Positions 29,136 to 52,572 of a DNA stretch of 64,000 nucleotides are shown piece by piece (within the stretch, counting starts at the first letter, position 1; each line of letters begins with the position of its first letter). The translations under genes and the position numbers were made by a program. The notes beneath the pieces were generated by a model. The model did not search any database and was not told the DNA's origin. It was given only the letters and a program-made list of their open reading frames with translations. The stretch comes from Maribacter sp. 4G9 (GTDB lineage: Bacteria > Bacteroidota > Bacteroidia > Flavobacteriales > Flavobacteriaceae), in contig NZ_MDGL01000149.1 of assembly GCF_002742265.1 (NCBI RefSeq), positions 1 to 64,000 on the forward strand. The letters are read 5' to 3'.

Positions 29136-29139
29136 GCTT

Positions 29140-30735: not shown

Positions 30736-30762
30736 ATAGCAAGAAATACCTGGAAATTCCTT

Positions 30763-31440: not shown

Positions 31441-31454
31441 AAGCCCATCCTAAA

Positions 31455-31473
31455 TCCTTCCCGCAGGGAAGGA
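31455..31473. repeat. Hairpin between kdgK and eda
   Basis: TCCTTCCC at 31455-31462 pairs perfectly with GGGAAGGA at 31466-31473 over a 3-base loop. With no T-run on the minus strand it is more likely an RNA processing or stability element than a terminator. Confidence 0.45.
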
Positions 31474-31552
31474 CTTCCATTTTTTTAACTATTAATACTA
31501 AATTTAAACATAAATATTTTCATCATACTCCTTTGAAGGGGTATGTATATGC

Positions 31553-32593: not shown

Positions 32594-32617
32594 TATGAAT
32601 TTAGATTGAAAATTGTT

Positions 32618-34117: not shown

Positions 34118-35047
34118 CTAGGGTTTATGACCCATTGGAGCATCATCCACTTTCAAATCACCCATAACATACTGGAGGCCGTCCAGATAAAACTTGAATA
34201 GCTCCGGATTTTGTAAACTTTGCGCATTGTGCGAAGGAGCGGAATAAAAAACCCTTCCCCTACCATATTTTTTTATCCAGGAAACATAATTCATAGTATC
34301 TTTTACCTTATGCTTGATTCCTTCTATCTTATCCACCTCAAAATAAAGTAATGGCCTAAAATTATAATCAAAGTAGGCATTTTTGAAAAAATAGGGTTCA
34401 TCAATATGCTTGAATCCATTTCCATTGAAGGCACTTACCAAGGGGTGGTCTTTGTCCACTTCCTTAAGATGAATTTCCTGCTGTTTTGGATGATAATCAA
34501 AACTCGCTCCGGTCATTCTGCTAAATTCCAGAGAATTGTTCTGTACCACAATCGCGCCATGCATAATCACTAGGCCACCCCCCTTTCTTACATATTCCAA
34601 TAGGTTGGACTCATAATGTTGCGCCTTCCTTTTGGCCTCTTCATCCGTAATGGAAGAATACTTTTTTAACAAGTCATAGAACAAATTTCTTTCAGGGCCT
34701 GTTGGGTTTGAATTATTCAATATTACCGCATCGTAGTTTTTTAGGCTTTTCCTTTCAAAATGGGTGATATCAAAACCGATTTGAACTTCGAAGGCTCCCG
34801 TTTTTTGGGCCAATATCCTCCAAACCTCATTGTTGTGGGGTATGGTCCAGTGATCAAAGCCCGTAGCTTTTGAGAACACCAGAACCTTTCTTTTTTTAGA
34901 GGCAACGACTGTGGTTTTTGATGGGGCATTATCATAAATACTTACCAACCATTCATCGTTTATGGGAAAAGGTTTTAATTCTTGTGCACTAACTGCGTTG
35001 AACATAAGTAAAGCGCAAATAATTAAGGTAGGCAAAACCTTTTTCAT
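34118..35047 (-). CDS. Secreted ThuA-family protein
   Basis: 309 residues with signal peptide MKKVLPTLIICALLMFNAVSAQ. ThuA domains have a glutamine-amidotransferase-like fold; here RKVLVFSKATGFDHWTIPHNNEVW, the GGGLVIMHGAIV turn and KYGRGRVFYSAPSHNAQS are clear. In rhizobia, ThuA works with the Gfo/Idh/MocA dehydrogenase ThuB in turning trehalose-type disaccharides into 3-keto sugars. The start overlaps the lacI end by four bases, so this secreted protein is co-translated with the regulator. A 7-base-arm palindrome (34110-34125) covers the stop codon. Confidence 0.85.
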   Translation of the reverse strand: MKKVLPTLIICALLMFNAVSAQELKPFPINDEWLVSIYDNAPSKTTVVASKKRKVLVFSKATGFDHWTIPHNNEVWRILAQKTGAFEVQIGFDITHFERKSLKNYDAVILNNSNPTGPERNLFYDLLKKYSSITDEEAKRKAQHYESNLLEYVRKGGGLVIMHGAIVVQNNSLEFSRMTGASFDYHPKQQEIHLKEVDKDHPLVSAFNGNGFKHIDEPYFFKNAYFDYNFRPLLYFEVDKIEGIKHKVKDTMNYVSWIKKYGRGRVFYSAPSHNAQSLQNPELFKFYLDGLQYVMGDLKVDDAPMGHKP

Positions 35048-36060
35048 TTTGAAGTAGATGATCTAATTATTAATTTATGACGAACTAAAATAGTATTCGT
35101 AGTCTGTAAGTTTATGTTCCCATTGAGATGAGCTATAATACTTTCTCCGGCAAGCGTTCCCATTTTGTAACCGGGATACTCTATGGTGGTGAGATTTGGA
35201 CTCACTATTTCGCATACAGGATCATTATTAAAACCAACTACTTTTATGTCCTCCGGAACCCTAAAACCTTCCCTTTGCAAAGCAATGATACAATGTGCCG
35301 CAAAATTATCACTGGCCACAAATAGTCCATCTATTTTTTTGTTTGCCCTTTTTATATGACTAATGACTTCTTCAATATGTATTGGGTCTAAGCCAGTTTC
35401 TATCAATTGATCGGCATGCAAGGAAAAGCCGTTCATCAAAAGTGCCTGTTGAAAACCTTTGAACCGATCGGCATACAATGTCCTTTTTAGATTGCCACTA
35501 ACATGTATAGGATTTTTACATCCCTGATCAACAAGGTGCTGACCTGCATCAAAACCTGCCGCTAAATTGTCTATTAAAATGGTGGGACATTGAGGAAGAT
35601 CGATTACACGATCAAAAAACAGAAGTGGTATTTTGCGAGAGGTAAAGGCCTCAAAATGTTCGTAATCGTTGGATTCGTTTGCCAATGACACTAATAGAGC
35701 ATCCACACCACTGTTCAATAATGTAGTTGCATTTATTTTTTCTTTCTCCTCCGATTCTTGGGACTGACTAATAATTAAATTATAGCCAACCTTGTTTGCA
35801 ACTTGCTCGATTCCCGCAAGTACCGTGGACATAAAGTATGAATTTAGTTTTGGCACAATAACCCCGATGGTATTTGATTGCTGCCTACTTAAATTAGAAG
35901 CGAACTTATTCGTCCTGTAGCCCTTTTCTTTTGCCAATTCCAAAACCATTTTCTTGGTGTTATCGCTTATAGAGGGGTGGCCATTTAGGCTACGGCTCAC
36001 CGTAGCTGGTGATAGGCCCAACTGGTTCGCCAAATCATAAATCGTTATTCTTTTAGACAT
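35044..36060 (-). CDS. LacI-family transcriptional regulator
   Basis: 338 residues from the ATG at 36060; the frame reaches 36102, but MSKRITIYDLANQLGLSPATVSRSLNG is the canonical helix-turn-helix start. Residues 5-55 bind DNA and about 60-335 form a periplasmic-binding-like sensor (TIGVIVPKLNSYFMSTVLAGIE, DGLFVASDNFAAHCIIAL). Presumably it responds to a hexuronate or a pathway intermediate. It is divergent from susC with candidate operators in the 260-bp gap, including one over its own -7 box, so autoregulation is likely. Confidence 0.93.
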   Translation of the reverse strand: MSKRITIYDLANQLGLSPATVSRSLNGHPSISDNTKKMVLELAKEKGYRTNKFASNLSRQQSNTIGVIVPKLNSYFMSTVLAGIEQVANKVGYNLIISQSQESEEKEKINATTLLNSGVDALLVSLANESNDYEHFEAFTSRKIPLLFFDRVIDLPQCPTILIDNLAAGFDAGQHLVDQGCKNPIHVSGNLKRTLYADRFKGFQQALLMNGFSLHADQLIETGLDPIHIEEVISHIKRANKKIDGLFVASDNFAAHCIIALQREGFRVPEDIKVVGFNNDPVCEIVSPNLTTIEYPGYKMGTLAGESIIAHLNGNINLQTTNTILVRHKLIIRSSTSK

Positions 36061-36085
36061 ATTAAAATTCAGTTGGAACTTATTT

Positions 36086-36111
36086 GTGCAACAAAAATAC
36101 AATTATTGCAC
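36086..36111. promoter_or_regulatory. Inverted repeat over the lacI promoter
   Basis: GTGCAACAA (36086-36094) and TTATTGCAC (36103-36111) are complementary at 8 of 9 positions, separated by 8 bases. The repeat covers the predicted -7 box of lacI. Confidence 0.5.
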
Positions 36112-36126
36112 GCTACAACCTACAAA
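36092..36126 (-). promoter_or_regulatory. Predicted lacI promoter
   Basis: On the minus strand TATTTTTG (36099-36092) matches the -7 consensus TAnnTTTG exactly. TTTG (36126-36123) supplies the -33 box with a 23-base spacer. The start codon lies about 31 bases further on. Confidence 0.5.
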
Positions 36127-36215
36127 AACATAAAAAATATAGCTAAAATTATAGGTATTATCATTATAGCGTAGTGAAATTTGTTAAAAATTAATTATTT
36201 TATGTAATAATTTAT

Positions 36216-36227
36216 GCAATCGGTTGC
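36216..36227. promoter_or_regulatory. Candidate LacI-family operator at the susC promoter
   Basis: GCAATCGGTTGC has a central CG and arms complementary at five of six positions, the classic LacI-family operator shape. It overlaps the predicted -33 box of the rightward promoter, so binding should repress susC. Confidence 0.6.
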
Positions 36228-36254
36228 TTTTTTCGATATTGATTTCTAGATTTG
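36224..36254 (+). promoter_or_regulatory. Predicted susC promoter
   Basis: TAGATTTG at 36247-36254 matches the Bacteroidota -7 consensus TAnnTTTG exactly. TTG at 36224-36226 gives a partial -33 box at a 20-base spacing. The susC ATG is 66 bases downstream. Confidence 0.55.
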
Positions 36255-36320
36255 GCTCAGTTAACATTAAGTTCACATTTCAGAGCAATTAATTTAATCA
36301 TCAACCTAACAACACAAAAT

Positions 36321-39300
36321 ATGGAAAAATCAAGTCATTTGACCATTTTGAAAAGAGCATGCCTACTGATGGTATTCTGCTATCTTGCCTGCACAAACTT
36401 TTCAAATGCGCAAAGTGGGTCCACAATAACGGGTACTGTTGTGGACAGCGAAAATTCACCCCTACCTGGAGCATCGATTGTCGAAAAAGGAACTTCCAAT
36501 GGAGTTTCTACGGATTTCGACGGGAACTTTTCAATTGATCTTTCTAGTGCCAATGCAATACTTTTGGTTTCCTATATAGGGTATGATCCAAAGGAAATTA
36601 GCGTAGAAGGAAAATCCAATATTGTCATAAACCTTAACGAAAACGCCTCTGCTTTGGACGAAGTAGTTGTTGTGGGTTATGGTAGCCAAAAACGTTCCGA
36701 TGTTACGGGGGCGATAGCAAGCGCCAATCTTGAAGCGTTTGAGGAAGCGCCCAATACCAATATAGCGCAGAGCTTACAGGGTACCGTCCCCGGCCTAAAC
36801 GTTGGCCAGGTGAACACGGCAGGTGGGACCCCTGAAATTACTATTAGGGGGCAAGTATCCCTAAATGGTAGCCAAAGCGTACTTATCGTTTTGGATGGTA
36901 TACAATATAATGGATCATTGTCTTCAATAAACCCAAATGATATCGAATCCATAGATGTATTAAAGGATGTTAGTTCTACCGCAATTTATGGGGCGCAAGC
37001 AGCCAACGGGGTAATTTTGATAACCTCCAAGGGAGGAAAGAGAAATCAAAAACCTAAAGTTTCCATTAGCTCTTCATATGCAACCCTACAACCGTCTCAA
37101 AATATAAGGCCGCTAAGAAGGGATGCATATATTGACCATTTGAACATGCAATTATACGATTTGCGTTTTCTAGCTCCTGACTATCTAACACCAAATCCAA
37201 ACTATGTTGGGTATTTTGAACCCGGGCAGGGTATTAATGCCAATTTTGAACTACAATCAGATACCAATCCCGGTGAATTTAACGACAATGATTACGATTG
37301 GTGGGAGGAAGGTACCCAAACAGGCTTTGTTAGACAAAATGAAATAAGTGTCGCAGGTGCCTCAGAGTCCACTAGCTATTTGGTTTCCTTAGGACTAACC
37401 GAACAGGAAGGTATAATTAGAAACGACGACTTTTCTCGTAGAAGCATCCGCGTAAACCTGGAAAGCAATATCACAAAAGGTTGGAAGATAGGTGTGCAAT
37501 CCTTTGGGTCGTTTGTCAAACAGGATGGTGACGAACCTTTTTTGTCGCAATTGGCAGGTTTTTCCCCTTTACTTGTTCCTTTTGACGATCAAGGTAATCT
37601 TATTCCCAATCCGGCAGGTACCATAGAACCCAATCCCTTTTTGGGCCTGGATACGCAAGACTATGAACGTCATGATTATTTCTTTGCCAATTTATATACT
37701 GAAGTAGACCTTCCTTTTATAAAAGGTTTGTCCTATCGTCTCAATTTTGGTAATAACTATAGAATAGATAAGTTTTACGGATCTAGTATTTATGAAGCGG
37801 GACAAACAGGGCTTGCGAGTAAGGACGTACGGTTTTATAGGGACTATACTTTGGACAATCTGTTAAATTACAGTAGGATTTTTGGAAAGCATGACGTTTC
37901 GGCCACCTTACTCTACGGAGCCATCGAGCGACAAGAAGAGACTACTGTGGCAACGGCCACCGGTTTTGACCGATTGCTGTTGGGCTACAATGATCTAGCC
38001 GTAGGAGCCATACCCACAATAAACTCAAGTGCATATACGGAGACTTTGAACTATCAAATGCTTAGGGCGAATTATAAATTTGATAACAGGTATATCCTGA
38101 CCGGTACTATTAGACGGGATGGATTTTCTGGGTTTGCGGCCAATGAAAAAACCGCTTATTTCCCTTCCGGTGCCTTGGGATGGATTGTGTCCAATGAGTC
38201 TTTTTTAAGGGATTCTGAATGGATAAACAACTTGAAGTTCAGGGCCAGTTACGGTATTAGTGGAAATCAGACCCCAAGATTCACCTCCCTAGCGAGATTG
38301 GGCACCAGAGCCGCCTATGTTTTTGGGGACGGTTCAGGTCCTGCTTTTGGTCAAGAGCTTACCTCATTGGCCAATCCTAACCTAAGATGGGAAAAAACCG
38401 CGGGTCTCAACCTAGGTTTGGACTTCTCACTTTTTACCGATAGGTTGCGAGGAAACCTGGATGTATATCAAAATACTACGGACGATTTATTGTTTTCAGT
38501 AAGGATACCCTTCCTTACGGGTTTTAGCAATATTCAGACAAACGTAGGTAAGATACAGAATACTGGTCTCGAGGTTTCTTTATCGGGTGATATTGTGCGT
38601 AATGACAACTTTACCTGGACGGCTACAGCGAACTTCTCAACAAATAAGAACGAAATTCTAGAACTTACCGGGGAGGACGCTGATGGCGATGGTGTTGAAG
38701 ATGATTTGATTCAAAGTAATCTTTTCATAGGGGAATCCATAAATGCAATTTATGATTACGAAGTAGATGGTATTTACCAAATAGGAGATGATATTCCAGA
38801 TGGTTATGCTATTGGAAATTACAGGGTCGTTGACCAAAACGGTGATGGAGTTATTACGCAAGCGGATGACCGCAAAATACTAGGAACCAGGGACCCTTCT
38901 TATGCAGTGTCTTTGTTGAACACGTTTACCTATAAAAATTTATCCTTTAGTTTTTTCCTTAACTCAATACAAGGTAATGGTGGAAACTATATTTCAAGGA
39001 ATGACAATGCACTTTATAGAAATGCCAATACATTGTACCAAAACGTACTTACAGGAATCGATTACTGGTCACCGGACAATCCAGATGGACTGAACGCCAT
39101 GGCGCCAAGCAGACCTGGGATTTCAGGAACACGTTATGAAAACAGAAGTTTCGTTCGTCTACAGGATATTAATCTTAGATATAACTTCAATAGGGATATT
39201 CTTGAAAGGATAGGTTTAACGGATTTAAGTGTATTTGTTAGTGGAAAGAACCTGTTTACATGGACAGATTGGACTGGATGGGATCCAGAATTTCAAAGGG

Positions 39301-39389
39301 CGTCAGATGGGATTTATGGTGTAGGCCTTACTACTAATGGCAGACCTGTATTAAAAGGATACTCACTAGGTTTAAACTTATCATTCTAA
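36321..39389 (+). CDS. SusC/RagA-type TonB-dependent outer membrane transporter
   Basis: 1022 residues from the ATG at 36321; the frame extends to 36252, but MEKSSHLTILKRACLLMVF is the natural signal peptide. A carboxypeptidase-like regulatory domain (GTVVDSENSPLPGASIVEKGTS) is followed by the TonB box/plug (NASALDEVVVVGYGSQKRSDVTGAI) and a 22-strand barrel ending GYSLGLNLSF. It imports oligosaccharides in energy-coupled fashion with the SusD lipoprotein encoded 11 bases downstream. The substrate is inferred to be a uronate-containing oligosaccharide. Confidence 0.95.
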   Translation: MEKSSHLTILKRACLLMVFCYLACTNFSNAQSGSTITGTVVDSENSPLPGASIVEKGTSNGVSTDFDGNFSIDLSSANAILLVSYIGYDPKEISVEGKSNIVINLNENASALDEVVVVGYGSQKRSDVTGAIASANLEAFEEAPNTNIAQSLQGTVPGLNVGQVNTAGGTPEITIRGQVSLNGSQSVLIVLDGIQYNGSLSSINPNDIESIDVLKDVSSTAIYGAQAANGVILITSKGGKRNQKPKVSISSSYATLQPSQNIRPLRRDAYIDHLNMQLYDLRFLAPDYLTPNPNYVGYFEPGQGINANFELQSDTNPGEFNDNDYDWWEEGTQTGFVRQNEISVAGASESTSYLVSLGLTEQEGIIRNDDFSRRSIRVNLESNITKGWKIGVQSFGSFVKQDGDEPFLSQLAGFSPLLVPFDDQGNLIPNPAGTIEPNPFLGLDTQDYERHDYFFANLYTEVDLPFIKGLSYRLNFGNNYRIDKFYGSSIYEAGQTGLASKDVRFYRDYTLDNLLNYSRIFGKHDVSATLLYGAIERQEETTVATATGFDRLLLGYNDLAVGAIPTINSSAYTETLNYQMLRANYKFDNRYILTGTIRRDGFSGFAANEKTAYFPSGALGWIVSNESFLRDSEWINNLKFRASYGISGNQTPRFTSLARLGTRAAYVFGDGSGPAFGQELTSLANPNLRWEKTAGLNLGLDFSLFTDRLRGNLDVYQNTTDDLLFSVRIPFLTGFSNIQTNVGKIQNTGLEVSLSGDIVRNDNFTWTATANFSTNKNEILELTGEDADGDGVEDDLIQSNLFIGESINAIYDYEVDGIYQIGDDIPDGYAIGNYRVVDQNGDGVITQADDRKILGTRDPSYAVSLLNTFTYKNLSFSFFLNSIQGNGGNYISRNDNALYRNANTLYQNVLTGIDYWSPDNPDGLNAMAPSRPGISGTRYENRSFVRLQDINLRYNFNRDILERIGLTDLSVFVSGKNLFTWTDWTGWDPEFQRASDGIYGVGLTTNGRPVLKGYSLGLNLSF

Positions 39390-39400
39390 TTCAATAAACA

Positions 39401-41074
39401 ATGAAAAAAATAATACTATTTCTAGCTATAATCCCCTTTTTCTGGGGATGTGACGAAGATTTCTTGGAAGAAAGACCAGAAGACTTTTTGAGTTCTACCA
39501 ATGCTTTTACAACATACGCGGATTTTACTGCATCTGTTAACAATTTGTACTTTTTGGTAAGAAGGCAGTTTTACAACAGGGATGAGAATAGGCCGTTCGA
39601 TTTTGTGTATGGCACCGATCTGGTCTTTGACGGGGAGCCTGGGGGCACCCAAAGGCATGGCAATATGGTACAGGCATATGACCCAGCGGGCGATATTGCC
39701 ACCACACATTGGAACTTGCTGTATAAGACCATCTCTGAGGCCAACACGGTTATTGAGCGAGCCCCATTGTCTGAAATGAACGAGGAGGAGATCCAGGACA
39801 TTGTTTCCCAAGCAAGATTTTTCAGGGGATTTGCCTATAACGTATTAGCCACCCTATATGGAGGTGTGCCCATAGTGACAGAGGAGATTAAAGAGCCTAA
39901 AATTGATTTTGTTAGGGCCAGTAAGAATGAGGTGTTACAGCAGGCCATAGATGATTTAATCTTTGCCGCCCAAAACCTACCCGCTATTTCAACAGCACAA
40001 GATGGTCGGGTAAATGATTTAGTGGCACACCATTATCTGGCAGAGGCCTATCTTTCCATGGGGATGAATACAGAAGCCATTGCCTCGGCCACTACGGTCA
40101 TCAATAACCCCAATACCGCTTTAATGACGGCTCGTTATGGCTCCCGTTCCACAGAAGAACCTGGTGACGTTTACTGGGATCTTTTCAGAAGGGGCAATCA
40201 AAACCGTGCCAGCGGCAATACGGAAGCCTTATGGGTAATCCAATTTGAATTGGATGTACAAGGGGGCGGCATACAGTCTGGCAGCCGCGGTGGTTCATAT
40301 CCTGCTGAAAGACATTTTGCACCCTTGTTACGCTTTGCCCCCTTCAACTCCTGGCCAGTAGGTGATTACACTGGAGGAAGGGGAATTGGTTGGGGAATTA
40401 CCACGGAGTTCTATACAAATACAGTATGGGGAAATGACGCCTCCAATCCAGATTTCGTAAATGACATTAGAAATGCCAACCATAACTTTATACGGATTTT
40501 CAACAGGGATAATTCCTCTGCTTTGGCAATAATAGCAGATGAAATAGGCAGGGATACGGTTTGGTCCACCGAAACACAACCAAGGATTCGGGAATTTTAT
40601 GCCTATCCTACCAAGGTAACCACTCCTTATAATCATCCGGAAGGCCTATTAAGACCAAGCAGTGTGCCTTTTGCCCTTACCTCGGCAGCTGGTTCCACGT
40701 ACACGGATCAATATATGTTAAGACTGGCCGAAACTTACTTGCTACGGGCAGAGGCTTACTTGGCCAATAACCAGTCACAATTGGCGGCAGATGATATTAA
40801 TGTGGTACGTAGTAGGGCAAATGCGTCTGCCGTGGCTGCTGGAGATGTAACGTTGGATTATATTTTGGATGAACGTGTTCGTGAATTGGGCCTTGAAGAA
40901 AAAAGAAGGCTTACTTTAATGCGGACAAACACAATTTATGATAGGGTTATACGGTACAATCCGTTTTACGTTGAAAATGGCATGCAGGAACATTTCAATT
41001 TATGGCCCATTCCTGCCAATGAAATCGAGGGTAACCGTGGTGCGGTCTTGGAACAAAACCCAGGGTATAATTAA
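39401..41074 (+). CDS. SusD/RagB-family glycan-binding lipoprotein
   Basis: 557 residues. The lipobox is in LAIIPFFWGC (Cys17). The SusD signature FLEERPEDFLSSTNAFTTYADF follows, with tetratricopeptide-like helices around RFFRGFAYNVLATLYGGVPIVTE and a C-terminal RLAETYLLRAEAYLANNQ and ILDERVRELGLEEKRR. It forms the lid over the SusC barrel at the cell surface and captures oligosaccharides. Followed by 133 bases before the next gene. Confidence 0.95.
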   Translation: MKKIILFLAIIPFFWGCDEDFLEERPEDFLSSTNAFTTYADFTASVNNLYFLVRRQFYNRDENRPFDFVYGTDLVFDGEPGGTQRHGNMVQAYDPAGDIATTHWNLLYKTISEANTVIERAPLSEMNEEEIQDIVSQARFFRGFAYNVLATLYGGVPIVTEEIKEPKIDFVRASKNEVLQQAIDDLIFAAQNLPAISTAQDGRVNDLVAHHYLAEAYLSMGMNTEAIASATTVINNPNTALMTARYGSRSTEEPGDVYWDLFRRGNQNRASGNTEALWVIQFELDVQGGGIQSGSRGGSYPAERHFAPLLRFAPFNSWPVGDYTGGRGIGWGITTEFYTNTVWGNDASNPDFVNDIRNANHNFIRIFNRDNSSALAIIADEIGRDTVWSTETQPRIREFYAYPTKVTTPYNHPEGLLRPSSVPFALTSAAGSTYTDQYMLRLAETYLLRAEAYLANNQSQLAADDINVVRSRANASAVAAGDVTLDYILDERVRELGLEEKRRLTLMRTNTIYDRVIRYNPFYVENGMQEHFNLWPIPANEIEGNRGAVLEQNPGYN

Positions 41075-41207
41075 AAAGATTTTATAAAATGTTATGTTAG
41101 TTTAGTTGTTAGTTTTATTATTTTTTTTTGAAAGTCACTTTTATTTTGCGTCTTCCAAAAATTGATTGAGTTAGTTTAGTTAATTACCGTTGTTCTAACC
41201 AAAGATT

Positions 41208-42425
41208 ATGAAAAGAATTATTTTGATTTTAGTTTTAATGCCAATAATGGCTTGTACATCAAAAAAAGAGGAAATCATTTTCAGTTTAGGAGAGAACAAC
41301 GGTATTCTAGTTGATCGACCTACCTCCGTCCACATTGGAGATTTGGATATTTCAAAGTATGATCTTTACAACAACGGACATCTTATTCCTTATGATTTTG
41401 ATACAGAAACAAATAAAATCTGGTTTGTACATGGTCCCGGAAAATCCCTTGAATATACGCTTAAGCCTAAGAATGAATTCCAAAACGATGTAGATAAATT
41501 AACTGCCAAAAAAGAAGATGGCCTTTTAACCCTATCCATAGGGAATGAGCCTAGGGTAGGTTACAGGTATGGAATGCATTACCCTCCCAACGGAGTAGAT
41601 TCCATTTTTAAAAAATCAGGTTTTATACATCCCCTTCTTACTCCCTCTGGTGATACGCTTACGAGAATAAACCCACCGGACCATTGGCATCATTATGGTA
41701 TTTGGGGACCCTGGACCCATACCAGAATTGATACCGTTAGGGTAGACTTTTGGAATATTGGAGATGGAAATGGTACAGTACTGCACAAGGAATTTAAAAA
41801 AGAATCAAATGGACAAGTCGCTTCCGGTTTTACCGCCGTTCAAGAACATATGGACCTCAAGACTGAAAATAGTCCGCAGGTGGCCCTTGAGGAAAAACTT
41901 GAAGTAAAGATATGGGAGCTCAACAACAAAAACCGCTATATCATGGATTATAGCTCCAGCTTTACCAGTCCCTTAAAAAATGGTATCTTATTTGAAGCCT
42001 ATAGATATGGTGGTGGTATTGGAATGCGATTTACGGAACGTTGGAAAAAGGATAACTGTAAGGTGCTAACCTCTGAGGGAAAAGACAGACTATCCGCAGA
42101 TGGCACAAACGCCAAATGGGCCATTGTGAGCGGTGAGGCCAGCAATGGAACGGGAACGAACGGCATTCTATTTCTGAGTCATTCCGGCAACAGAATGCAC
42201 CCTGAACCTATGCGAGTCTGGCCCATTGACGGAAATGGCGGCCGCGGGGATATGTTCTTTGAATTTTGCCCGATCAGACATGAACCCTGGGAAATTGAAC
42301 CCAATCAAGTATATCAATTAAAATATAGAATGGTGGTCTTTGAGGGAGAACTTTCCCCTGAAGAGGCAGAAGCTTATTGGAAGGACTTCGTTGAACCTGT
42401 ACAATCAGAATTAGAGGTAAATTAA
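41208..42425 (+). CDS. DUF6807 (PmoA-like) lipoprotein
   Basis: 405 residues with lipobox LMPIMAC (Cys16). The conserved HPLLTPSGDTLTRINPPDHWHHYGIWGPWTH motif, with several histidines, marks the DUF6807 family (older name PmoA-like). These proteins occur in polysaccharide loci, often beside Gfo/Idh/MocA dehydrogenases. The fold is beta-rich and the histidines suggest metal or sugar binding. No verified enzyme activity is known to me. It follows SusD and is 12 bases before the first dehydrogenase, so the two probably act together outside the cytoplasm. The gap before it contains GTTAGTTTAGTT twice (41096-41107, 41170-41181). Confidence 0.85.
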   Translation: MKRIILILVLMPIMACTSKKEEIIFSLGENNGILVDRPTSVHIGDLDISKYDLYNNGHLIPYDFDTETNKIWFVHGPGKSLEYTLKPKNEFQNDVDKLTAKKEDGLLTLSIGNEPRVGYRYGMHYPPNGVDSIFKKSGFIHPLLTPSGDTLTRINPPDHWHHYGIWGPWTHTRIDTVRVDFWNIGDGNGTVLHKEFKKESNGQVASGFTAVQEHMDLKTENSPQVALEEKLEVKIWELNNKNRYIMDYSSSFTSPLKNGILFEAYRYGGGIGMRFTERWKKDNCKVLTSEGKDRLSADGTNAKWAIVSGEASNGTGTNGILFLSHSGNRMHPEPMRVWPIDGNGGRGDMFFEFCPIRHEPWEIEPNQVYQLKYRMVVFEGELSPEEAEAYWKDFVEPVQSELEVN

Positions 42426-42437
42426 AATTAACTACCA

Positions 42438-43817: not shown

Positions 43818-43823
43818 CATTCG

Positions 43824-43851
43824 AAAGGGTTTCACATCAAAGTCCCTTTTT
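43824..43851 (+). terminator. Weak terminator-like stem after the first Gfo gene
   Basis: AAAGGG at 43824-43829 pairs with CCCTTT at 43844-43849 over a 14-base loop and is followed by two more T residues. It could partly attenuate transcription between the two Gfo genes. Confidence 0.35.
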
Positions 43852-43932
43852 GCTTACCTCCTATTTTGATAACCTACTAGGTCCCATTGTAAAGGTGGGG
43901 CAGAATTTACATTTACTTTGAAATTAAAGCAC

Positions 43933-45315: not shown

Positions 45316-46133
45316 TGGGCGAACAATTCTCTTTATCTAATAGAACGTATGCAATCTCTGGGGGAACCGGCATACTTGGAGGGTCAATTGCTGAATACTT
45401 GGTAAATGAAGGGGCTAAAGTCATCCTGTTAGGAAGATCTCTGGAGAAATTGGAATCAAAACAAAAAGTATTGGACCAAATAGCTGCAAACAGTACAACT
45501 ATCTTTAAGGTGGATGTACTTAGTGAAACCGAGTTGTTTAGATTAAAGGAGATAATTTCTACATCTTTTGATACATTGGACGGCTTAATTAATTTGGCCG
45601 GAGGTAATATCCCTGGCGCAACCCTGCGGCCAGATCAGACCATTCATGATATTGCAATGTCAGATACTCAAAAAGTAGTGGACATTAATCTTTTTGGTAC
45701 CGTAATGCCTTCTATAGTTTTGAGTGGTATTATGGTAAAACAAGGTAAAGGTTCTATAATTAATATATCATCCATGGCAGCCAAACAAAGTATTTCAAGG
45801 GTATTGGGCTATTCAATGGCCAAGGCCGGTGTTGATATTTTTACAAAATGGATGGCGCAAGAACTTGCCACAAAACACGGGGATAAAATAAGGGTCAACG
45901 CCATCGCACCAGGATTTTTTATAGGTAACCAGAATAGGAAATTGCTGATTAATGAAGATGGTTCCCTTACGGAAAGAGGACAGCTCATTATCAACAACAC
46001 TCCTATGAAACGTTTTGGCGATGTAATGGAATTAAATGGCATGGTCCATTACCTTTTAAGCGATGCATCCTCATTCGTGACAGGGAGCATTTTTGATTTG
46101 GACGGCGGTTTCAATTCATTTTCTGGAGTTTAG
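45315..46133 (+). CDS. SDR-type D-mannonate oxidoreductase (fructuronate reductase)
   Basis: 272 residues. SDR features: SGGTGILGGSIAEYL for nucleotide binding, NLAGGNIPGAT, the catalytic Ser in INISSMAAK, and YSMAKAGVDIF with Tyr and Lys. The segment APGFFIGNQNRKLLINEDGSLTERGQLII is typical of the SDR class of D-mannonate oxidoreductases that replace UxuB in many bacteria. It reduces fructuronate to mannonate just before uxuA in gene order. No signal peptide. Confidence 0.88.
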   Translation: MGEQFSLSNRTYAISGGTGILGGSIAEYLVNEGAKVILLGRSLEKLESKQKVLDQIAANSTTIFKVDVLSETELFRLKEIISTSFDTLDGLINLAGGNIPGATLRPDQTIHDIAMSDTQKVVDINLFGTVMPSIVLSGIMVKQGKGSIINISSMAAKQSISRVLGYSMAKAGVDIFTKWMAQELATKHGDKIRVNAIAPGFFIGNQNRKLLINEDGSLTERGQLIINNTPMKRFGDVMELNGMVHYLLSDASSFVTGSIFDLDGGFNSFSGV

Positions 46134-46233
46134 AAGATTTGCCAATGAAAGTTCTTGACCAACGGACCTTACAAAAGCGTTTCTATTATGGTATCTTGTT
46201 TTTGAAATAACCATAAAACTGTATATTGTAACC

Positions 46234-46241
46234 TACCTTTG
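46234..46241 (+). promoter_or_regulatory. Possible -7 box upstream of uxuA
   Basis: TACCTTTG matches TAnnTTTG exactly, 35 bases before the uxuA start. A -33 TTTG at normal spacing is not seen, so this would be an internal promoter of uncertain strength. Confidence 0.35.
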
Positions 46242-46276
46242 GAAACACGCGATAATTATCTTTTTTTTAATAAAGA

Positions 46277-47473
46277 ATGAAAAATCTAAAGAAAACATTT
46301 AGGTGGTTTGGACCCGATTTTGGTGTATCGTTAGCGGATATAAGGCAATTGGGCGTACAAGGAATAGTGGCGGCCTGCCAGGAAGTACTGCTGGGCGAGA
46401 TATGGCCCAAGGACACCATTGGTGCCCTAAAGACACAAATAGAAAATCATGGTATGGAATGGTCCGTAGTGGAAAGTGTGAATGTGCATACGGCCATCAA
46501 ATACGGACTCAAGGAAAGGGACCTGTATATATCCAATTATATAGAAACTTTAAAAAATTTAGCGGCCCACGGTATTTATAACGTGTGCTATAATTTTATG
46601 CAGCTCATAGACTGGACCCGCACCGATCTAGATTATATTTTGCCAACCGGAGCATCGGCCCTTCGATATAGTCCAATTTCAGCAGCGGCATTTGACCTTT
46701 TTATATTGGAACGCGAAGGAGCCCAAGAGTCGTATTCAAAAGACGAATATTTAGAGGCCAAGGCCTATTATGGAGCCTTGTCCGATTCCGGAAAAAAGAA
46801 CTTAAAAGCAGCCATTCTGGCCGGTATGCCAGGCTCCAGAAAAGAAATAGATTTAAGCGAATTTAAAAAGAACCACACCACCGTATTGGGTATAAAAAAG
46901 GAAACACTTCAAGAAAACCTATCATATTTTCTCAACGCGGTGATTCCAGATGCTGAAAAATTGGGCGTACGCATGGCCATACATCCGGATGACCCTCCAT
47001 TTTCCGTTTTTGGGGTCCCCAGAATCGTTTCCAATTATGACGATATTAAGTTTTTGTTGGAATGTTGTCCTTCCCCCAGCAATGGGCTAACTTTTTGTTC
47101 CGGTTCTTTGGGAGCATCGGAAACCAATGACTTGGTGAAAATTATAGAGGATTTTGGGGATAAGATCCATTTTATACATCTTCGCAATGTTTCCCGAAAC
47201 CAAGATGGCAGTTTTTACGAGGCCGATCATCTAAGTGGTTCCGTACCTATGCAAAAGGTCATGAAGGCCATCGTACAACAGCAACAAAAACGACATATGA
47301 CACAAAATGGGGTGGTGGACATCCCCATGAGACCAGATCATGGACATGTTTTGTTGGATGATAAAAAGCGCCAGCAGGAATTTTACTCCGGTTACTCGCT
47401 CATTGGCAGGGCCATGGGACTTGCCCAACTTTCTGGGTTGGAAATGGGTGTACGGGAAGGCTTGGTTGTATAA
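46277..47473 (+). CDS. uxuA: Mannonate dehydratase
   Basis: 398 residues. It dehydrates D-mannonate to KDG. Family marks are FRWFGPDFGVSLADIRQLGVQGIVAA, the substrate/metal region MAIHPDDPPFSVFGVPRIVS, GLTFCSGSLGA and HFIHLRNV, with conserved His and Cys residues for Mn binding, then DIPMRPDHGHVLLDD. Together with uxaC and the SDR it completes the glucuronate branch. It stands 143 bases after the SDR gene with a possible own promoter. Confidence 0.95.
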   Translation: MKNLKKTFRWFGPDFGVSLADIRQLGVQGIVAACQEVLLGEIWPKDTIGALKTQIENHGMEWSVVESVNVHTAIKYGLKERDLYISNYIETLKNLAAHGIYNVCYNFMQLIDWTRTDLDYILPTGASALRYSPISAAAFDLFILEREGAQESYSKDEYLEAKAYYGALSDSGKKNLKAAILAGMPGSRKEIDLSEFKKNHTTVLGIKKETLQENLSYFLNAVIPDAEKLGVRMAIHPDDPPFSVFGVPRIVSNYDDIKFLLECCPSPSNGLTFCSGSLGASETNDLVKIIEDFGDKIHFIHLRNVSRNQDGSFYEADHLSGSVPMQKVMKAIVQQQQKRHMTQNGVVDIPMRPDHGHVLLDDKKRQQEFYSGYSLIGRAMGLAQLSGLEMGVREGLVV

Positions 47474-47496
47474 AAAATATAATATTGATTTATAAA

Positions 47497-48489
47497 ATGT
47501 ACACTATCGCTTGGAAAGGAATACGGACAAAAATTTTGTGGGTATGTACTTTGCTTTTGTTGCAATCCTGTGCTTTGGAGAATAACACCAAGGTGCTTTA
47601 TTTTGCCCATTCCCTTCCTATTACACATCCCGTACATAGGGCCATAATGGACATGAAGGAATCCTTGGCCCAAAAATCTGGCGGGAAACTGCAAATAAAG
47701 ATCTTTCCAGATGGACAACTTGGAACGGAGCGCGAAGTCTTGGAACTCCTACAAATAGGGAGTATTTCAATGACAAAGGTAAGTGCAGCCTCCCTTTCCA
47801 ACTTCGCCCCAGACTATCAGGTAACCAGTATTCCCTATTTATTCAGGGACGGCGAACATCTGTTCAAGGTACTGGAAGGTGAAATTGGGAAGGAACTATT
47901 AATGAGCAGTACGGAATATTTACTACGAGGGCTATGTTTCTATGATGCCGGGGCCCGAAGCTTTTATGCAAAGAACCAAAAAATAGAAAGCCCTGCGGAT
48001 TTAGAGGGGATGAAGATCAGGACCATGAACGACCAAATGTCCGTTGATATGGTAAACACACTTGGCGGTTCCGCAACTCCCATGGCCTATGGCGAACTCT
48101 ATACCGCCCTACAACAAAACGTGGTTGATGGAGCGGAAAACAACATTCCTTCCTTTGTTACCAGTAACCATTACGAGGTCTGTAAATACTATTCGTTCGA
48201 TGAGCATACCATGGTACCCGATGTGGTAGTGATCGGAACACGTTTTTGGGAAACATTGAGCGATACGGAAAAAATCTGGCTTCAGGAAGCTGCCGATGAA
48301 AGTGTAGCAAAGCAAAAACGGTATTGGAAAGAAACGGTGGAAGAAAATATGAAGGTGTTGAAAAAGGCCAATGTTCAATTTTTATATCCGGATAAAAGTG
48401 AATTTTCAAAAAATGCCGCTCCGATCATGGAGAAAATGATGCAAGATGAAAAAATGAAAGCGGTAATTGAAAAAATACGGTCAGAATAA
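47497..48489 (+). CDS. dctP: TRAP transporter substrate-binding lipoprotein (DctP family)
   Basis: About 330 residues from the ATG at 47497; an in-frame TTG at 47485 is less likely. The N-terminal WVCTLLLLQSC is a lipobox, so the binding protein is membrane-anchored rather than free. DctP marks: FPDGQLGTEREVLELLQIGSISMT, the carboxylate-binding Arg region GMKIRTMNDQMSVDMVNTLGGSATPMAYGELYTALQQNVVDGAENN. It likely binds a hexuronate. It shares one base with the next gene. Confidence 0.92.
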   Translation: MYTIAWKGIRTKILWVCTLLLLQSCALENNTKVLYFAHSLPITHPVHRAIMDMKESLAQKSGGKLQIKIFPDGQLGTEREVLELLQIGSISMTKVSAASLSNFAPDYQVTSIPYLFRDGEHLFKVLEGEIGKELLMSSTEYLLRGLCFYDAGARSFYAKNQKIESPADLEGMKIRTMNDQMSVDMVNTLGGSATPMAYGELYTALQQNVVDGAENNIPSFVTSNHYEVCKYYSFDEHTMVPDVVVIGTRFWETLSDTEKIWLQEAADESVAKQKRYWKETVEENMKVLKKANVQFLYPDKSEFSKNAAPIMEKMMQDEKMKAVIEKIRSE

Positions 48490-48962
48490 TGCAAAAAACC
48501 TACAATCTCCTGAACAAAATAATCGAGGGCCTTTTGGTAATCATCTTCGGTCTACTCGTCATAGACGTAGTTTGGCAAGTGGTATCCCGTTATGTCGTAG
48601 GCCAATCAAGTTCCTTTACGGAGGAATTCGCACGCTTTTCATTGATTTGGCTGACGGTACTAGGTGCAGCCTATATCAACGGGCAGCAAGAAGGTCACCT
48701 TTCCATGGATTTTTTACTATTAAAATTGCCCGAGGCCAAACGAAAAAGGAGACAAAAAGTAATCCAAATAGCAATGGCCCTCTTTGCTTTTGTGGTTATG
48801 GTCATTGGCGGTGGTAATTTGGTCTATACTACGCTTCGATTGGGCCAAACCTCCTCTGCCCTACATCTGCCACTGGGGTACGTATATAGTATTGTGCCCT
48901 TATGTGGTCTTATTATTATGTTCTTTTCATGGTACAACGTTAAACAACTAAATAGGAAATAA
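48489..48962 (+). CDS. dctQ: TRAP transporter small membrane subunit (DctQ family)
   Basis: 157 residues with four membrane helices; VIDVVWQVVSRYVVGQSSSFTEEFARFSLIWLTVLGAAY is the family signature. It bridges the binding protein and the large DctM subunit. ATG overlaps the dctP stop by one base and dctM begins directly after its stop. Confidence 0.92.
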   Translation: MQKTYNLLNKIIEGLLVIIFGLLVIDVVWQVVSRYVVGQSSSFTEEFARFSLIWLTVLGAAYINGQQEGHLSMDFLLLKLPEAKRKRRQKVIQIAMALFAFVVMVIGGGNLVYTTLRLGQTSSALHLPLGYVYSIVPLCGLIIMFFSWYNVKQLNRK

Positions 48963-50273
48963 ATGAGTATAGAGCTTATAAGTGTTTTGGTCCTTTTTGT
49001 AAGTTTTGCCATTTTATTGCTCTACGGGGTACCCGTAGCCTACTCCATAGGTATTTCCACTACTCTGGTCCTTGTTGTCAATATGGCCTTTAATCCCTCT
49101 GTAACCACGGTGGCCCAGCGAATGACCACCGGTATCGATAATTTTGCCCTTTTGGCTATCCCATTTTTTATTCTGGCGGGGGAACTCATGAACCGTGGTG
49201 GCGTGGCCAATAGGCTTATCGCTTTGGCCAAATCCCTAATAGGGAGCCTTCCGGGAGGACTGGCCTATGTGAACATCATTTCTGCCATGTTGTTCGGGGC
49301 CATTTCAGGTTCGGCCATAGCTGCGGCCTCGGCCATTGGTAGTACACTGACGGACAAAATGGAAAAAGAAGGCTATCCCAGGCAATTTAGTGCCGCCGTA
49401 AACATTAGTTCATCCACTACGGGCCTATTGATACCCCCCAGTAACGTACTCATCATTTTTGCTTTGGCAAGCGGTGGAACGGCCTCCGTGGCCGCCCTAT
49501 TTGTGGCAGGGTACATCCCCGGTATTTTGGTGGGCCTTGCACTTATGGTCATGGTCTTTTTTTATGCTAAAAAGAAGAAATTACCCAAGGCCGATAGGGT
49601 AGGCTTCAAACAGCTTTTTATTGATTTTAAGGAAGCTTTTCTCAGCCTTACGCTGTTGGTTATTGTGGTTGGAGGAATCGTTGCCGGTATTTTTACAGCG
49701 ACCGAGGCTGCGGCTATTGCCGTTGTTTATGCCGCTTTTTTAGGTTTCCTCAACAGGGAACTGCATGTTAGGGATTTTAGGGGCATTTTGCTGAAAAGTG
49801 CGAAAACAACGGCCATCGTCATGTTCTTGATTGCCACTTCCATGGCCATGTCCTGGGTGTTTTCCTTTGAAGGCATACCGCAATTGCTAACGGGAATCAT
49901 GGTCGATTCCGTAAGTAACCCCATATTGATTTTCTTGCTCATCAACTTAATATTACTCATTGTAGGAACTTTTATGGATATGACCCCAGCGGTTCTCATC
50001 TTTACCCCTATTTTCCTTCCCGTTGCCATGGCGCTAGGGATGCATCCTGTTCAGTTTGGAATGGTGATCGTATTGAATTTGTGTATTGGGGTTTGTACCC
50101 CCCCGGTGGGTACTTTACTTTTTGTGGGCAGTGGCGTGGCCCAAGTACCGGTTGGCAAGGTTATCAAACCCTTATTACCCCTTTTATTGGCCATGGTTTT
50201 TGTACTATTTTTAATTACTTATTTTTCAGGAATATCATTGTGGTTGCCCCAATTTTTTGGGTTGATCGATTAG
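48963..50273 (+). CDS. dctM: TRAP transporter large membrane subunit (DctM family)
   Basis: 436 residues with about 12 membrane segments. GVPVAYSIGISTTLVLV, IPFFILAGELMNRGGVANRLIALAKSLIGSLPGGLAYVNIISAMLFGAISGSAIAAASAIGS and LIPPSNVLIIFALASGGTASVAALFVAGYIPG are DctM hallmarks. It carries out sodium-driven uptake of the ligand across the inner membrane. In Bacteroidota, TRAP systems beside uxu/uxa genes usually import hexuronates. Confidence 0.95.
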   Translation: MSIELISVLVLFVSFAILLLYGVPVAYSIGISTTLVLVVNMAFNPSVTTVAQRMTTGIDNFALLAIPFFILAGELMNRGGVANRLIALAKSLIGSLPGGLAYVNIISAMLFGAISGSAIAAASAIGSTLTDKMEKEGYPRQFSAAVNISSSTTGLLIPPSNVLIIFALASGGTASVAALFVAGYIPGILVGLALMVMVFFYAKKKKLPKADRVGFKQLFIDFKEAFLSLTLLVIVVGGIVAGIFTATEAAAIAVVYAAFLGFLNRELHVRDFRGILLKSAKTTAIVMFLIATSMAMSWVFSFEGIPQLLTGIMVDSVSNPILIFLLINLILLIVGTFMDMTPAVLIFTPIFLPVAMALGMHPVQFGMVIVLNLCIGVCTPPVGTLLFVGSGVAQVPVGKVIKPLLPLLLAMVFVLFLITYFSGISLWLPQFFGLID

Positions 50274-50313
50274 AAGTGATACTACAATGATTTCCCCAAA
50301 CAATTTTTTATTC

Positions 50314-52572
50314 ATGAAGTTTGTATTTGTTCCCATAACTATTGCCTTTATTTTTTTTACCTCCTGTAAACCTTCTTATGAAGAGACCGAAATATCTTTG
50401 GATACCTATACCTTGGAAAAAGGTTTTACTTTAAAGGTCTTGGCATCGGAACCACTCCTTAAGGCACCCGTTGCGATGGATTTTGACGATAAGGGCAGGA
50501 TGTGGGTAGCACAGATGCCCGGTTACATGAACGATATGCAGGGCTCCGCGGAAAACGATCCCGTGGGAAGTATTCGTATTCTCGAAGATCTCGACCATGA
50601 TGGTATTGCGGACCATGCAAAAATATTCTTGGACAGCCTGATCATGCCTAGGGCATTGGCCCATGTCTATGGCGGTTTGCTCTATGCGGAACCTCCTTAT
50701 TTATGGTTCGTGGACATCAAGGACGACAAACCAGCGAATCCCGTATTGGTAGACTCACTATATGCCGTAGAAGGTAATCCGGAACATCAGCCCAATGGAC
50801 TATTGTTAAACGTGGACAATTGGATCTACAATGCCAAGTCCAATTTTAGATATAGAAGAAAAAATGGAATATGGTATAAAGAACCAACCACGTTTAGGGG
50901 CCAGTGGGGAATTTCCAATGATAATTTTGGCCGATTATATTACAACGATAACTCAAGGATATTACTTGGGGATTATGTGCTGCCCAATACGTTGATCGGC
51001 AATACCCATTTTACTCCAGACTCCAGTGTGGACAATGTCCTAACCAATGACCAACGTGTCTATCCAAGCCACGCCACCACGGTGAATAGGGGTTATGCCA
51101 AAGGGGTGTTGAACCAAGATAGTATTTTGATCCATGCTACCGCCGCATGCAGCCCCTTGGTTTATAGGGGAGGTTCTTTTTCCAAGGAATATGACCAAAA
51201 TGTCTTTGTATGTCTACCCGAAGGAAATTTGATCAAAAGAGTCCTACTGAACTTCAAAGGGGATTCGATCACGGCGCAGCATGCATGGCAGGATAAAGAA
51301 TTCTTGACCTCTACGGATGAAGGGTTTCGCCCCGTATCGATTAAGAACGGCCCTGATGGCAGTATATATGTAGTGGATATGCACAGGGGTATGATCGGTC
51401 ACCATGCCTATTTAAGTCCTTACTTGAAGAAAAAAACAGCGAGAAACCGTTTGGATACCATCACCAATTATGGGCGGATTTTAAATATCAAATCAGAAAA
51501 TTTTCAAGAGGTACCAATCCCCGATTTTAAAACTAGGACCGGCGAGGAACTTATTTCCTTATTGTCCAGTGGGAATGGTTGGATTCGTGATCGAGCTCAG
51601 CACCATCTGCTATTTCATAAACCCGATGGATTGATACAGGCCTTAAAAGATGTAATATTCAACGCCAATAACGATTGGGCACCAATACATGCGCTTTATG
51701 TTTTGGAAGAATGGGATAAGCTTACCTTCGATTTCCTCTCGGAGGTTATTGAAAAAGGCAATGATAAGGCTGCGGCACATGCCTTGGTACTTTTGAAACC
51801 CTTTGCTTTGGAAGAACATAAGGATTCCGCCAAATCTCTTTTTGAAAAGGTCGTGGACAAAGATAGAATGGTGCTGGATATTTACCTTGGCAATACTCTA
51901 GGTACTTGGATGCAAATTGATAACAATGCCTTTGCCCAGACTTTTTTGACCCTTTTAAAGAGACATAGCGAAAATGCTACGGTACAAGAAGCACTCATAA
52001 GTGGATTGGATGGCATTGAAAAGCAATTACTTGGTACTAAGGACTTAGATGAGGATACCTTTGCCTCCTTTACAGATAAGCTAACAAAAAGTATCTCCAA
52101 TAGGGACCAAAAGGTATTCAATCCAATTTATACGAGAAAAACATTAAATGAGGATGATAGAACAAGTGGCGCAAAAATGTTTTATGCTATTTGTGCCTCG
52201 TGCCATGGACCCAATGGTCAGGGTATCGAGGGCCTTGCACCTCCTCTCATTAATTCGGAACATGTTAAAAATACGGAGCGGTTGGCACTTATTATGCTCC
52301 ATGGTCTGGAAGGCCCCATACAAGTAAATGGGAAGGAATACGACCTTAATTTGGCCATGCCCGGACTCATTAGGAACGAGACCATAACCGATAAGGACAT
52401 TGCGGATATCATCGCCTATGTTACCAATTCTTTTTCTGACAAACCCAAAACCCTCAAGGAAGAACGTATAGCCGAACTGAGAAAGGTTAAATCCTCCTCG
52501 GGCATGGAGTTTACCGAATCTGAGTTAATTCAGCTCGATACTGAAAAAGAGACCTTGGACAAAGGGAAATAA
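50314..52572 (+). CDS. Propeller/HEAT/cytochrome c lipoprotein (PVC-type heme-binding CxxCH protein)
   Basis: 752 residues from the ATG at 50314, which gives lipoprotein signal MKFVFVPITIAFIFFTSC; an ATG at 50287 is also in frame. The N-terminal propeller-like dehydrogenase domain (about 25-380) has FDDKGRMWVAQMPGYMND and NGPDGSIYVVDMHRGMIGHH. A HEAT-like helical region follows. The C-terminal cytochrome c has CASCH near residue 627 and an axial Met in LAMPGLI. Such proteins are thought to pass electrons from sugar oxidation; the substrate is unknown. Thirteen bases (or 40) after dctM, so the same operon. Confidence 0.85.
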   Translation: MKFVFVPITIAFIFFTSCKPSYEETEISLDTYTLEKGFTLKVLASEPLLKAPVAMDFDDKGRMWVAQMPGYMNDMQGSAENDPVGSIRILEDLDHDGIADHAKIFLDSLIMPRALAHVYGGLLYAEPPYLWFVDIKDDKPANPVLVDSLYAVEGNPEHQPNGLLLNVDNWIYNAKSNFRYRRKNGIWYKEPTTFRGQWGISNDNFGRLYYNDNSRILLGDYVLPNTLIGNTHFTPDSSVDNVLTNDQRVYPSHATTVNRGYAKGVLNQDSILIHATAACSPLVYRGGSFSKEYDQNVFVCLPEGNLIKRVLLNFKGDSITAQHAWQDKEFLTSTDEGFRPVSIKNGPDGSIYVVDMHRGMIGHHAYLSPYLKKKTARNRLDTITNYGRILNIKSENFQEVPIPDFKTRTGEELISLLSSGNGWIRDRAQHHLLFHKPDGLIQALKDVIFNANNDWAPIHALYVLEEWDKLTFDFLSEVIEKGNDKAAAHALVLLKPFALEEHKDSAKSLFEKVVDKDRMVLDIYLGNTLGTWMQIDNNAFAQTFLTLLKRHSENATVQEALISGLDGIEKQLLGTKDLDEDTFASFTDKLTKSISNRDQKVFNPIYTRKTLNEDDRTSGAKMFYAICASCHGPNGQGIEGLAPPLINSEHVKNTERLALIMLHGLEGPIQVNGKEYDLNLAMPGLIRNETITDKDIADIIAYVTNSFSDKPKTLKEERIAELRKVKSSSGMEFTESELIQLDTEKETLDKGK

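Follow-up and report, generated by a model that had tools for sequence, protein, structure and literature searches.

A stepwise 3-keto glycoside pathway of the BT2156-2160 type has reportedly been described in Bacteroides (in Nature, in 2024). Here we examined a locus of Maribacter sp. 4G9 that may, on indirect support, be a variant of such pathways and release its sugar oxidatively. The locus was first delimited at 34118..52572 of a 64,000-nucleotide stretch (positions 1 to 64,000 of contig NZ_MDGL01000149.1; "the window" means this whole stretch), and it combines a SusC/SusD pair, a TRAP transporter and uronate genes with exported DUF6807, ThuA and Gfo/Idh/MocA proteins. Like the 3-keto glycoside pathways, it is a sugar locus of a member of the Bacteroidota that includes a Gfo/Idh dehydrogenase, and some of its relatives carry a partner of the PF06439 (3-keto-disaccharide hydrolase) type. 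Unlike them, the window lacks PF06439 and has DUF6807, ThuA and a Gfo protein without the NAD loop (gfo2), and its dehydrogenase (gfo1) scores far under the BT_2158 cut-off. The gene set is real and conserved beyond chance, as confirmed by co-occurrence and by a conserved operator.

Other described systems share parts of this picture. Glycoside hydrolase (GH) family GH4 and the glycoside eliminases provide a precedent for oxidation-elimination chemistry (PMC10628242). The levoglucosan pathway, LgdA-LgdB1-LgdB2-LgdC, is described in PMC7676230 as four steps of oxidation, elimination, hydration and reduction; the four steps proposed below are alike, but the substrate and enzymes differ. In the 3-ketolactose pathway (PMC9007349), periplasmic oxidation is likewise followed by cleavage, but the proteins are the LacABC dehydrogenase and DUF1080 and the substrate is lactose; the same paper ties DUF1080 proteins to 3-ketotrehalose and proposes them for 3-ketolactose hydrolysis. 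The GH154/GH88 route also begins with a non-hydrolytic step on beta-glucuronides, GH154 proteins being reported as glucuronate dehydratases in PMC12269599; a GH154-type gene is present in six Bacteroidales relatives of our locus, but the 4G9 genome has no DUF2264 or GH88/105 match. SusCD, a regulator and adjoining catabolic genes recall a polysaccharide utilisation locus, from which the window differs in that no GH or polysaccharide lyase (PL) was found.

Gene content of the locus

The secreted proteins and the short-chain dehydrogenase/reductase (SDR), uxuA and TRAP genes form one compact operon. The features of the locus, followed by those of an upstream block, are these:

34118..35047, minus strand: thuA, secreted ThuA-like protein (PF06283, 111 bits, cut-off 33.4; Sec-type signal read from the sequence)
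35044..36102, minus strand: lacI, LacI-family regulator (PF00356, PF13377)
36216..36227, plus strand: LacI-type operator GCAATCGGTTGC in the lacI-susC divergent promoter (pattern search)
36252..39389, plus strand: susC, SusC-like TonB transporter (from sequence and context, without a profile run; the listed start is TTG, a downstream in-frame ATG being likelier)
39401..41074, plus strand: susD, SusD-like lipoprotein (PF07980, PF14322)
41208..42425, plus strand: DUF6807 lipoprotein (PF14100; lipobox judged by eye)
42438..43817, plus strand: gfo1, Gfo/Idh/MocA dehydrogenase exported by twin-arginine translocation (Tat) (PF01408 and PF19051; GxGxxA loop and QKP lysine intact)
43918..45315, plus strand: gfo2, Gfo-like lipoprotein (PF16490; DKP and D..TH..D retained; lipobox judged by eye; the listed start is TTG, an in-frame ATG being likelier)
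45315..46133, plus strand: SDR, D-mannonate oxidoreductase of the fructuronate reductase type (NCBIfam PRK08277, 303 bits, cut-off 281)
46277..47473, plus strand: uxuA, mannonate dehydratase (TIGR00695, PF03786)
47485..50273, plus strand: dctP-dctQ-dctM, TRAP transporter (PF03480, TIGR00787 and TIGR00786 for DctP and DctM; DctQ by context)
50287..52572, plus strand: DUF7133 and cytochrome c lipoprotein with a PVC-type heme-binding CxxCH (PF23500, PF00034, TIGR02604)
32618..34015, minus strand: uxaC, uronate isomerase (NCBIfam PRK02925, 622 bits)
31553..32593, minus strand: PfkB-family kinase, probable KdgK (PF00294)
30763..31440, minus strand: KDPG/KHG aldolase, probable KdgA (PF01081)
29140..30588, minus strand: mannitol-dehydrogenase family, probable UxaB tagaturonate reductase (PF01232, PF08125)
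27519..29159, minus strand: D-galactarate/altronate dehydratase family, probable UxaA (PF20629, PF04295)

Intergenic gaps are 11 bp between susC and susD, 12 bp between DUF6807 and gfo1, 11 bp between uxuA and dctP and 13 bp between dctM and the cytochrome gene, and gfo2 and SDR share one base (45315). The uronate genes thus named lie in two blocks: SDR, uxuA and TRAP inside the operon, and the uxaC-kdgK-kdgA-uxaB-uxaA types upstream on the minus strand (27519-34015), outside the locus as first delimited. All five enzyme families of the hexuronate pathway UxaC-UxuB-UxuA-KdgK-KdgA are present, UxuB as an SDR of the PRK08277 type. A prolipoprotein diacylglyceryl transferase gene (lgt, window positions 26571-27407) adjoins the uronate genes. 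The original prediction, made from the bare sequence, had named SusCD, TRAP, the uronate genes, ThuA, a Tat-exported Gfo/Idh/MocA dehydrogenase (gfo1), DUF6807 and a cytochrome c-propeller lipoprotein (the DUF7133-cytochrome protein). Coordinates and Pfam/NCBIfam assignments bear these out, SusC and DctQ being named from sequence and context.

That prediction had also recognised no GH or PL in the locus and had offered a profile search as one way to overturn its reading. The search did not overturn it: profiles at E ≤ 0.001 gave no GH or PL family in ten locus proteins, ten neighbours (four of them uronate genes), UxaC and DctM, the scan leaving out SusC and DctQ. Of the marks of a polysaccharide utilisation locus, the SusC/SusD pair is present (SusD by Pfam, SusC by sequence alone) and a GH or PL is missing from the profile-scanned proteins, SusC and DctQ excepted. 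A genome-wide search covering GH88/105, GH115, DUF2264 and GH67 found no match to the first three at E ≤ 0.001. Around the related loci introduced below, 48 of 56 hitherto unscanned cluster representatives (at least 250 aa, within 8 kb) were searched at E ≤ 1e-10, and among the families listed (25 of 35 and 25 of 39) the GH families comprised one GH2 and one GH3 protein.

Conservation, co-occurrence and the operator

When 199 genomes of the same family were searched with DUF6807, 21 had a homologue at E ≤ 1e-20, and of the 20 neighbourhoods from the other genomes (one from each), 18 contained gfo1 and 18 contained gfo2. A scan of named genomes confirmed at least 568 relatives, of which the best 80 were kept as named DUF6807 loci (26 shorter than 20 kb; 54 full-length). 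By tblastn at 1e-8, the 80 loci contained gfo1 in 78 cases, gfo2 in 68, thuA in 62, the cytochrome in 43, SDR in 36, susC in 35, uxuA in 31, TRAP in 23 and uxaC in 19. At 40% identity or more, gfo1 was found in 76/80 and thuA in 57/80 loci, two gfo1 and five thuA matches falling below. Any of SDR, UxuA, UxaC, hexonate epimerase, UxaE and DUF2264 within 10 kb was counted as a uronate marker; 42/80 loci and 35/54 full-length loci had one. Because Arenibacter is over-represented, we also counted taxon labels, assigned by hand from titles with each metagenome-assembled genome (MAG) as its own label, and found a marker in 21 of 51.

Among 247 Bacteroidota genomes, PF14100 occurred in 30, PF16490 in 17 and UxuA in 66. 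All 17 PF16490 genomes also had PF14100 (Fisher 1.6e-18) and UxuA (3e-11); with the window's genome removed, the association was 16/16 for both (1.3e-17 and 1.2e-10), these values being uncorrected for phylogeny or genome size. PF14100 and PF16490 lay within 4 kb of each other in 13 of the 17 genomes. UxuA was present in 25/30 PF14100 genomes and in 8/13 of those without PF16490.

A conserved LacI-type site stands in front of the operon. The pattern GCAANCGNTTGC lay upstream of lacI in 30 of the 38 named loci that have lacI and, counting all 49 loci with lacI (some genomes twice), in 38, out of 47 matches in 1.81 Mb. Nine of the 11 loci missing it (six distinct genomes) showed no SDR or uxuA; in the other two, one match lay elsewhere in the locus. 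Some loci, such as L045, L047 and L063, have the operator and neither SDR nor uxuA. When eight intergenic stretches were scanned for palindromes at a strict setting, the operator was missed; it was spotted by eye in the output and then searched for, so the pattern was chosen after inspection of the window. Within the window GCAATCGGTTGC gives a single match, as do 36 of 100 shuffles; since this lone site is not significant, the evidence for the operator is its conservation across loci.

The exported proteins

For motif counts, homologues under an identity or length cut were removed first. Among gfo1 homologues, the Tat motif was found in 69/70 and both the NAD loop and [QE]KP in 70/70, and TatC is encoded in the genome. 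With its Rossmann GxGxxA loop and [EQ]KP lysine, gfo1 has the hallmarks of Gfo/Idh/MocA proteins, catalytic residues being assigned from what is known of the family. Its closest sequences in the PDB, 8tdf and 8tdh, are titled only as dehydrogenases; we take both to come from the Bacteroides 3-keto glycoside work. The P2B11 glucuronide-3-dehydrogenase 8tdi is a distant relative (PDB rank 36, E 2.8e-8).

The original prediction of a Gfo-like lipoprotein without GxGxxG held for gfo2, which has DPGHFHAA where the NAD-binding glycine loop is expected. GxGxx[GA] occurred in 0/64 homologues, whereas DPGHFHAA was kept in 55/64 and [DN]PGHFHA in the remaining nine; DKP was present in 64/64 and D.T.HL.D in 53/64. 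An alignment of gfo2 with gfo1 by hhalign was weak (4.5% probability), and kinship with Gfo proteins was judged from Pfam and from its relatives in the PDB, 4oo3 (E 9e-205) and, marginally, DgpA (E 0.001), which PMC11239390 describes as oxidising puerarin at the 3-position. Tat export would let gfo1 carry NAD out of the cytoplasm as a Sec-exported lipoprotein could not, which would fit the lost loop of gfo2.

A DUF6807 model built from 58 sequences (predicted local distance difference test score, pLDDT, 89) is predicted to resemble most a galactose-mutarotase/PL26-type sandwich. Foldseek against the PDB gave 40 matches at E ≤ 0.001, of which the PL26 exo-rhamnogalacturonan lyase chains were best (E 7e-7; template modelling score, TM, 0.50-0.59 of the query), with partial overlap (TM 0.26-0.29 of the target; root mean square deviation 7-10 Å). 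Next came sandwich domains of sugar enzymes in alpha-mannosidase, beta-galactosidase and mutarotase entries (TM to mutarotases below 0.5), along with a viral capsid protein and YidC; a BFVD fold search gave nothing useful. No PL26 sequence match was found in Pfam or with the DUF6807 profile against PDB sequences, and the PDB holds no solved structure of a DUF6807 sequence relative. The motif DHxHH[YF]G was present in 77/77 homologues at 40% identity or more. A lipobox regular expression matched 18/77 DUF6807 and 21/64 gfo2 homologues; it was too strict and starts were uncertain, so lipoprotein status is given, by eye, for the window proteins. A second, short DUF6807 paralogue follows closely behind the first in L098, L104, L106, L107, L109, L114, L117-L119, L122 and L123 (Pfam on L117). 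In the literature searched, DUF6807 was met as a bare name in one review and PF14100 in two papers, and PF16490 and DUF7133 went unmentioned, synonyms not having been searched exhaustively. PF14100 is used in PMC10291797 as a marker of the methane oxygenase PmoA; because it is here a lipoprotein family of sugar loci, PmoA counts based on it may mislead. PMC5342196 places a PF14100 gene in a soil metagenome operon beside two enzymes with demonstrated lactose-hydrolysing activity.

DUF6807 is fused to ThuA in L125 (by Pfam) and in L126, L127 and L128 (by blastp only), and another DUF6807 of the 4G9 genome is part of a 1298-aa DUF6807-DUF7133-HEAT-cytochrome c fusion (L124; G000:C15:502-4395, minus strand). 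ThuA is assigned by its PF06283 membership, which does not imply a trehalose function. Among the 43 cytochrome tblastn matches are 30 that take in the propeller and 12 confined to the cytochrome c part. The latter correspond to 12 marine MAG loci (L086, L089-L095, L097, L099, L100 and L112; Pfam was run on one GSDH) in which the place of the fused DUF7133-cytochrome gene is taken by a PQQ-type GSDH gene immediately after gfo2 and, behind that gene, a small cytochrome c match; by tblastn, none of the 12 has SDR, uxuA or uxaC. Pareuzebyella (L083) encodes, some 6 kb behind DUF6807-gfo2 and on the opposite strand, a ThuA-GSDH-PKD-cytochrome c protein that also shows a sub-threshold CBM6. DUF1501-type genes occur near L046, L047, L052, L058, L062, L063, L074, L085 and L099, some of these loci also having planctomycete-type PSCyt1/PSCyt2/PSD1 or NHL-repeat genes. 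The cytochrome as sole electron sink was considered and rejected, direct evidence for it being absent and the DUF7133-cytochrome model (pLDDT 66) too poor to judge the fold.

PF06439 genes lie near L071, L077, L078, L105 and L108. The L077 protein matched at 90 Pfam bits, and its homologues in L071 and L078 are nearly complete in length; weaker matches occur in L120 and L037. L065 has only the C-terminal part of such a protein at a contig end and was not counted, although the model used to search the loci was seeded partly with this fragment. The genes of L105 run SDR, PfkB-like gene, gnd, nickel hexonate epimerase, DUF6807, Gfo and PF06439 (318 bits), an order repeated by homology in L108 (Seramator thermalis), and the best NCBIfam match of the L105 Gfo is the BT_2158_fam glycoside 3-dehydrogenase (282 bits, cut-off 750). 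PF06439 and a BT_2158-like Gfo beside DUF6807 in relatives lend indirect support to a link with 3-keto chemistry. The contig that holds the window has two PF06439 matches some 48 kb past the window end (G000:C148:112448-113904).

Proposed uronoside release, its rivals and its substrate

We propose, with somewhat less than even confidence, that this is a LacI-controlled uronoside locus encoding non-GH/PL machinery that frees the sugar outside the cytoplasm by redox-neutral oxidation-elimination. The reactions outside the cytoplasm are our reading of the observed gene families, export motifs, linkage and operator conservation. SusCD would import uronate-bearing oligosaccharides or conjugates. 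Exported in folded form with bound NAD(P), gfo1 would transiently oxidise the uronosyl residue at the non-reducing end, C3 being the likeliest position; DUF6807 and ThuA would eliminate the aglycone and add water, their division of labour being a guess; and gfo1-NADH would reduce the product back, giving net hydrolysis without an electron acceptor. With its catalytic Lys, Asp and His kept and its NAD loop lost, gfo2 would be a non-redox partner. Free saturated D-glucuronate, and in this genome probably D-galacturonate too, would enter by TRAP and pass through UxaC, SDR, UxuA, KdgK and KdgA, whose families are present and whose reactions are established pathway knowledge. Since these cytoplasmic genes consume a saturated uronate, a redox-neutral cycle on NAD-loaded gfo1 is the simplest scheme and the best fit. 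To our knowledge, the levoglucosan enzymes are, by their folds, not DUF6807 or ThuA proteins. More tentatively than the scheme as a whole, we suggest that DUF6807, ThuA, the PF16490 Gfo and gfo1 could be a new set of enzymes outside the cytoplasm for uronoside splitting through transient oxidation plus elimination, a glycan-release route of marine Bacteroidota in which DUF6807 would be a 3-keto-uronoside eliminase of mutarotase fold.

The substrate is suggested by the relatives. In L104, L105, L108 and L122, an SDR, a nickel hexonate epimerase and gnd stand in place of UxuA, and the epimerase is also found in L114. The L105 epimerase matches the nickel-pincer hexonate epimerase model NF052594 at 661 bits (NCBIfam run on L105), and in the epimerase loci a 6-phosphogluconate dehydrogenase gene (that of L108) and a PfkB-like gene lie next to the mannonate oxidoreductase. 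These loci likely encode a mannonate-to-gluconate bypass of UxuA, in which mannonate would again derive from a uronate. UxaE occurs in one relative locus and sulfatase genes in six. DUF2264/GH154-type genes, with PDB relatives 9o4u and 9nwf, lie directly upstream of DUF6807 in L104, L114, L118 and L121 and behind gfo1 in L113 and L120. UxuA or epimerase plus gnd, UxaE, the DUF2264/GH154 types and the sulfatases together suggest D-glucuronides, perhaps on sulfated glycans.

Several observations weigh against redox-neutral oxidation-elimination. The DUF2264/GH154-type genes fit glucuronides but imply dehydratase chemistry. PF06439 lies near just five of 80 loci and is absent from the window, all 15 genome matches (14 over the cut-off) lying elsewhere, and gfo1 itself reaches 129 bits against BT_2158_fam (NF058561; cut-off 750), over residues 2-277 only. 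A propeller and cytochrome c lie near 42/80 loci, 30 of the DUF7133 type and 12 with a PQQ-type GSDH and a separate small cytochrome; in the proposed scheme, and with the same reserve as the whole of it, the propeller-cytochrome would be an accessory, which does not explain its frequency. Many of the 80 loci come from Arenibacter, and shared ancestry inflates the counts. A polysaccharide lyase domain is the nearest fold of DUF6807, uronate markers are absent from 19 of 54 full-length loci, and the genome encodes a GH67-family protein elsewhere (G000:C167).

DUF6807 could be a PL or glycosidase that has gone unrecognised and cleaves the uronoside by itself, with Gfo and ThuA handling side products, as its Foldseek ranking and its invariant DHxHH[YF]G motif would allow. 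We consider this unlikely: DUF6807 has no PL/GH sequence match in Pfam or to the PDB PL26 chains, PL26 is covered only in part, and the regular pairing of DUF6807 with an NAD-loop Gfo would be left unexplained. Moreover, a lyase yields an unsaturated uronate, which is processed by enzymes other than UxaC, SDR and UxuA, and GH88/105 is without a match in the genome. It is about as unlikely, in our view, that this is an ordinary uronate locus for which GHs elsewhere (e.g., the GH67 protein) free the uronate while the exported proteins modify other uronates or sugars. The marker-free cores would fit that account, as would L066 and L075, which have window-type SusCD (78-85% identical) yet no uronate markers; however, the exported genes share an operon and a conserved LacI-type site with the uronate genes, and UxuA accompanies PF16490 without exception.

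The original prediction had instead supposed net periplasmic oxidation, with the cytochrome propeller as acceptor or oxidase, followed by elimination or hydrolysis. The frequency of propeller and cytochrome near the loci and the fusion of DUF6807 and ThuA to propeller-cytochrome modules elsewhere speak for it, but Gfo enzymes hand electrons to NAD and not to cytochromes, the cytoplasmic genes use free, saturated uronate and not a keto product, and none of the 12 GSDH-type loci has SDR, uxuA or uxaC. We regard it as improbable, and a redox-neutral cycle needs no acceptor. The rest of that interpretation is partly supported, by the lack of a GH or PL profile match, the single operon with its LacI site, the NAD loop and lysine of gfo1 and the 3-keto genes of some relatives; the bond itself may be opened by oxidation or, less probably, by a lyase acting directly.

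The potential of a bacterium to degrade glycans is usually read from its GH and PL genes. If the gene set described here does release uronates, loci that seem incomplete would be complete, and surveys based on GH and PL genes would leave this route uncounted. Strains of Zobellia, Arenibacter and Maribacter kept in culture collections are among the relatives that have the locus, so the proposal is directly testable. If true, it would give a testable role to DUF6807, PF16490 and ThuA, families of unknown or vague function.

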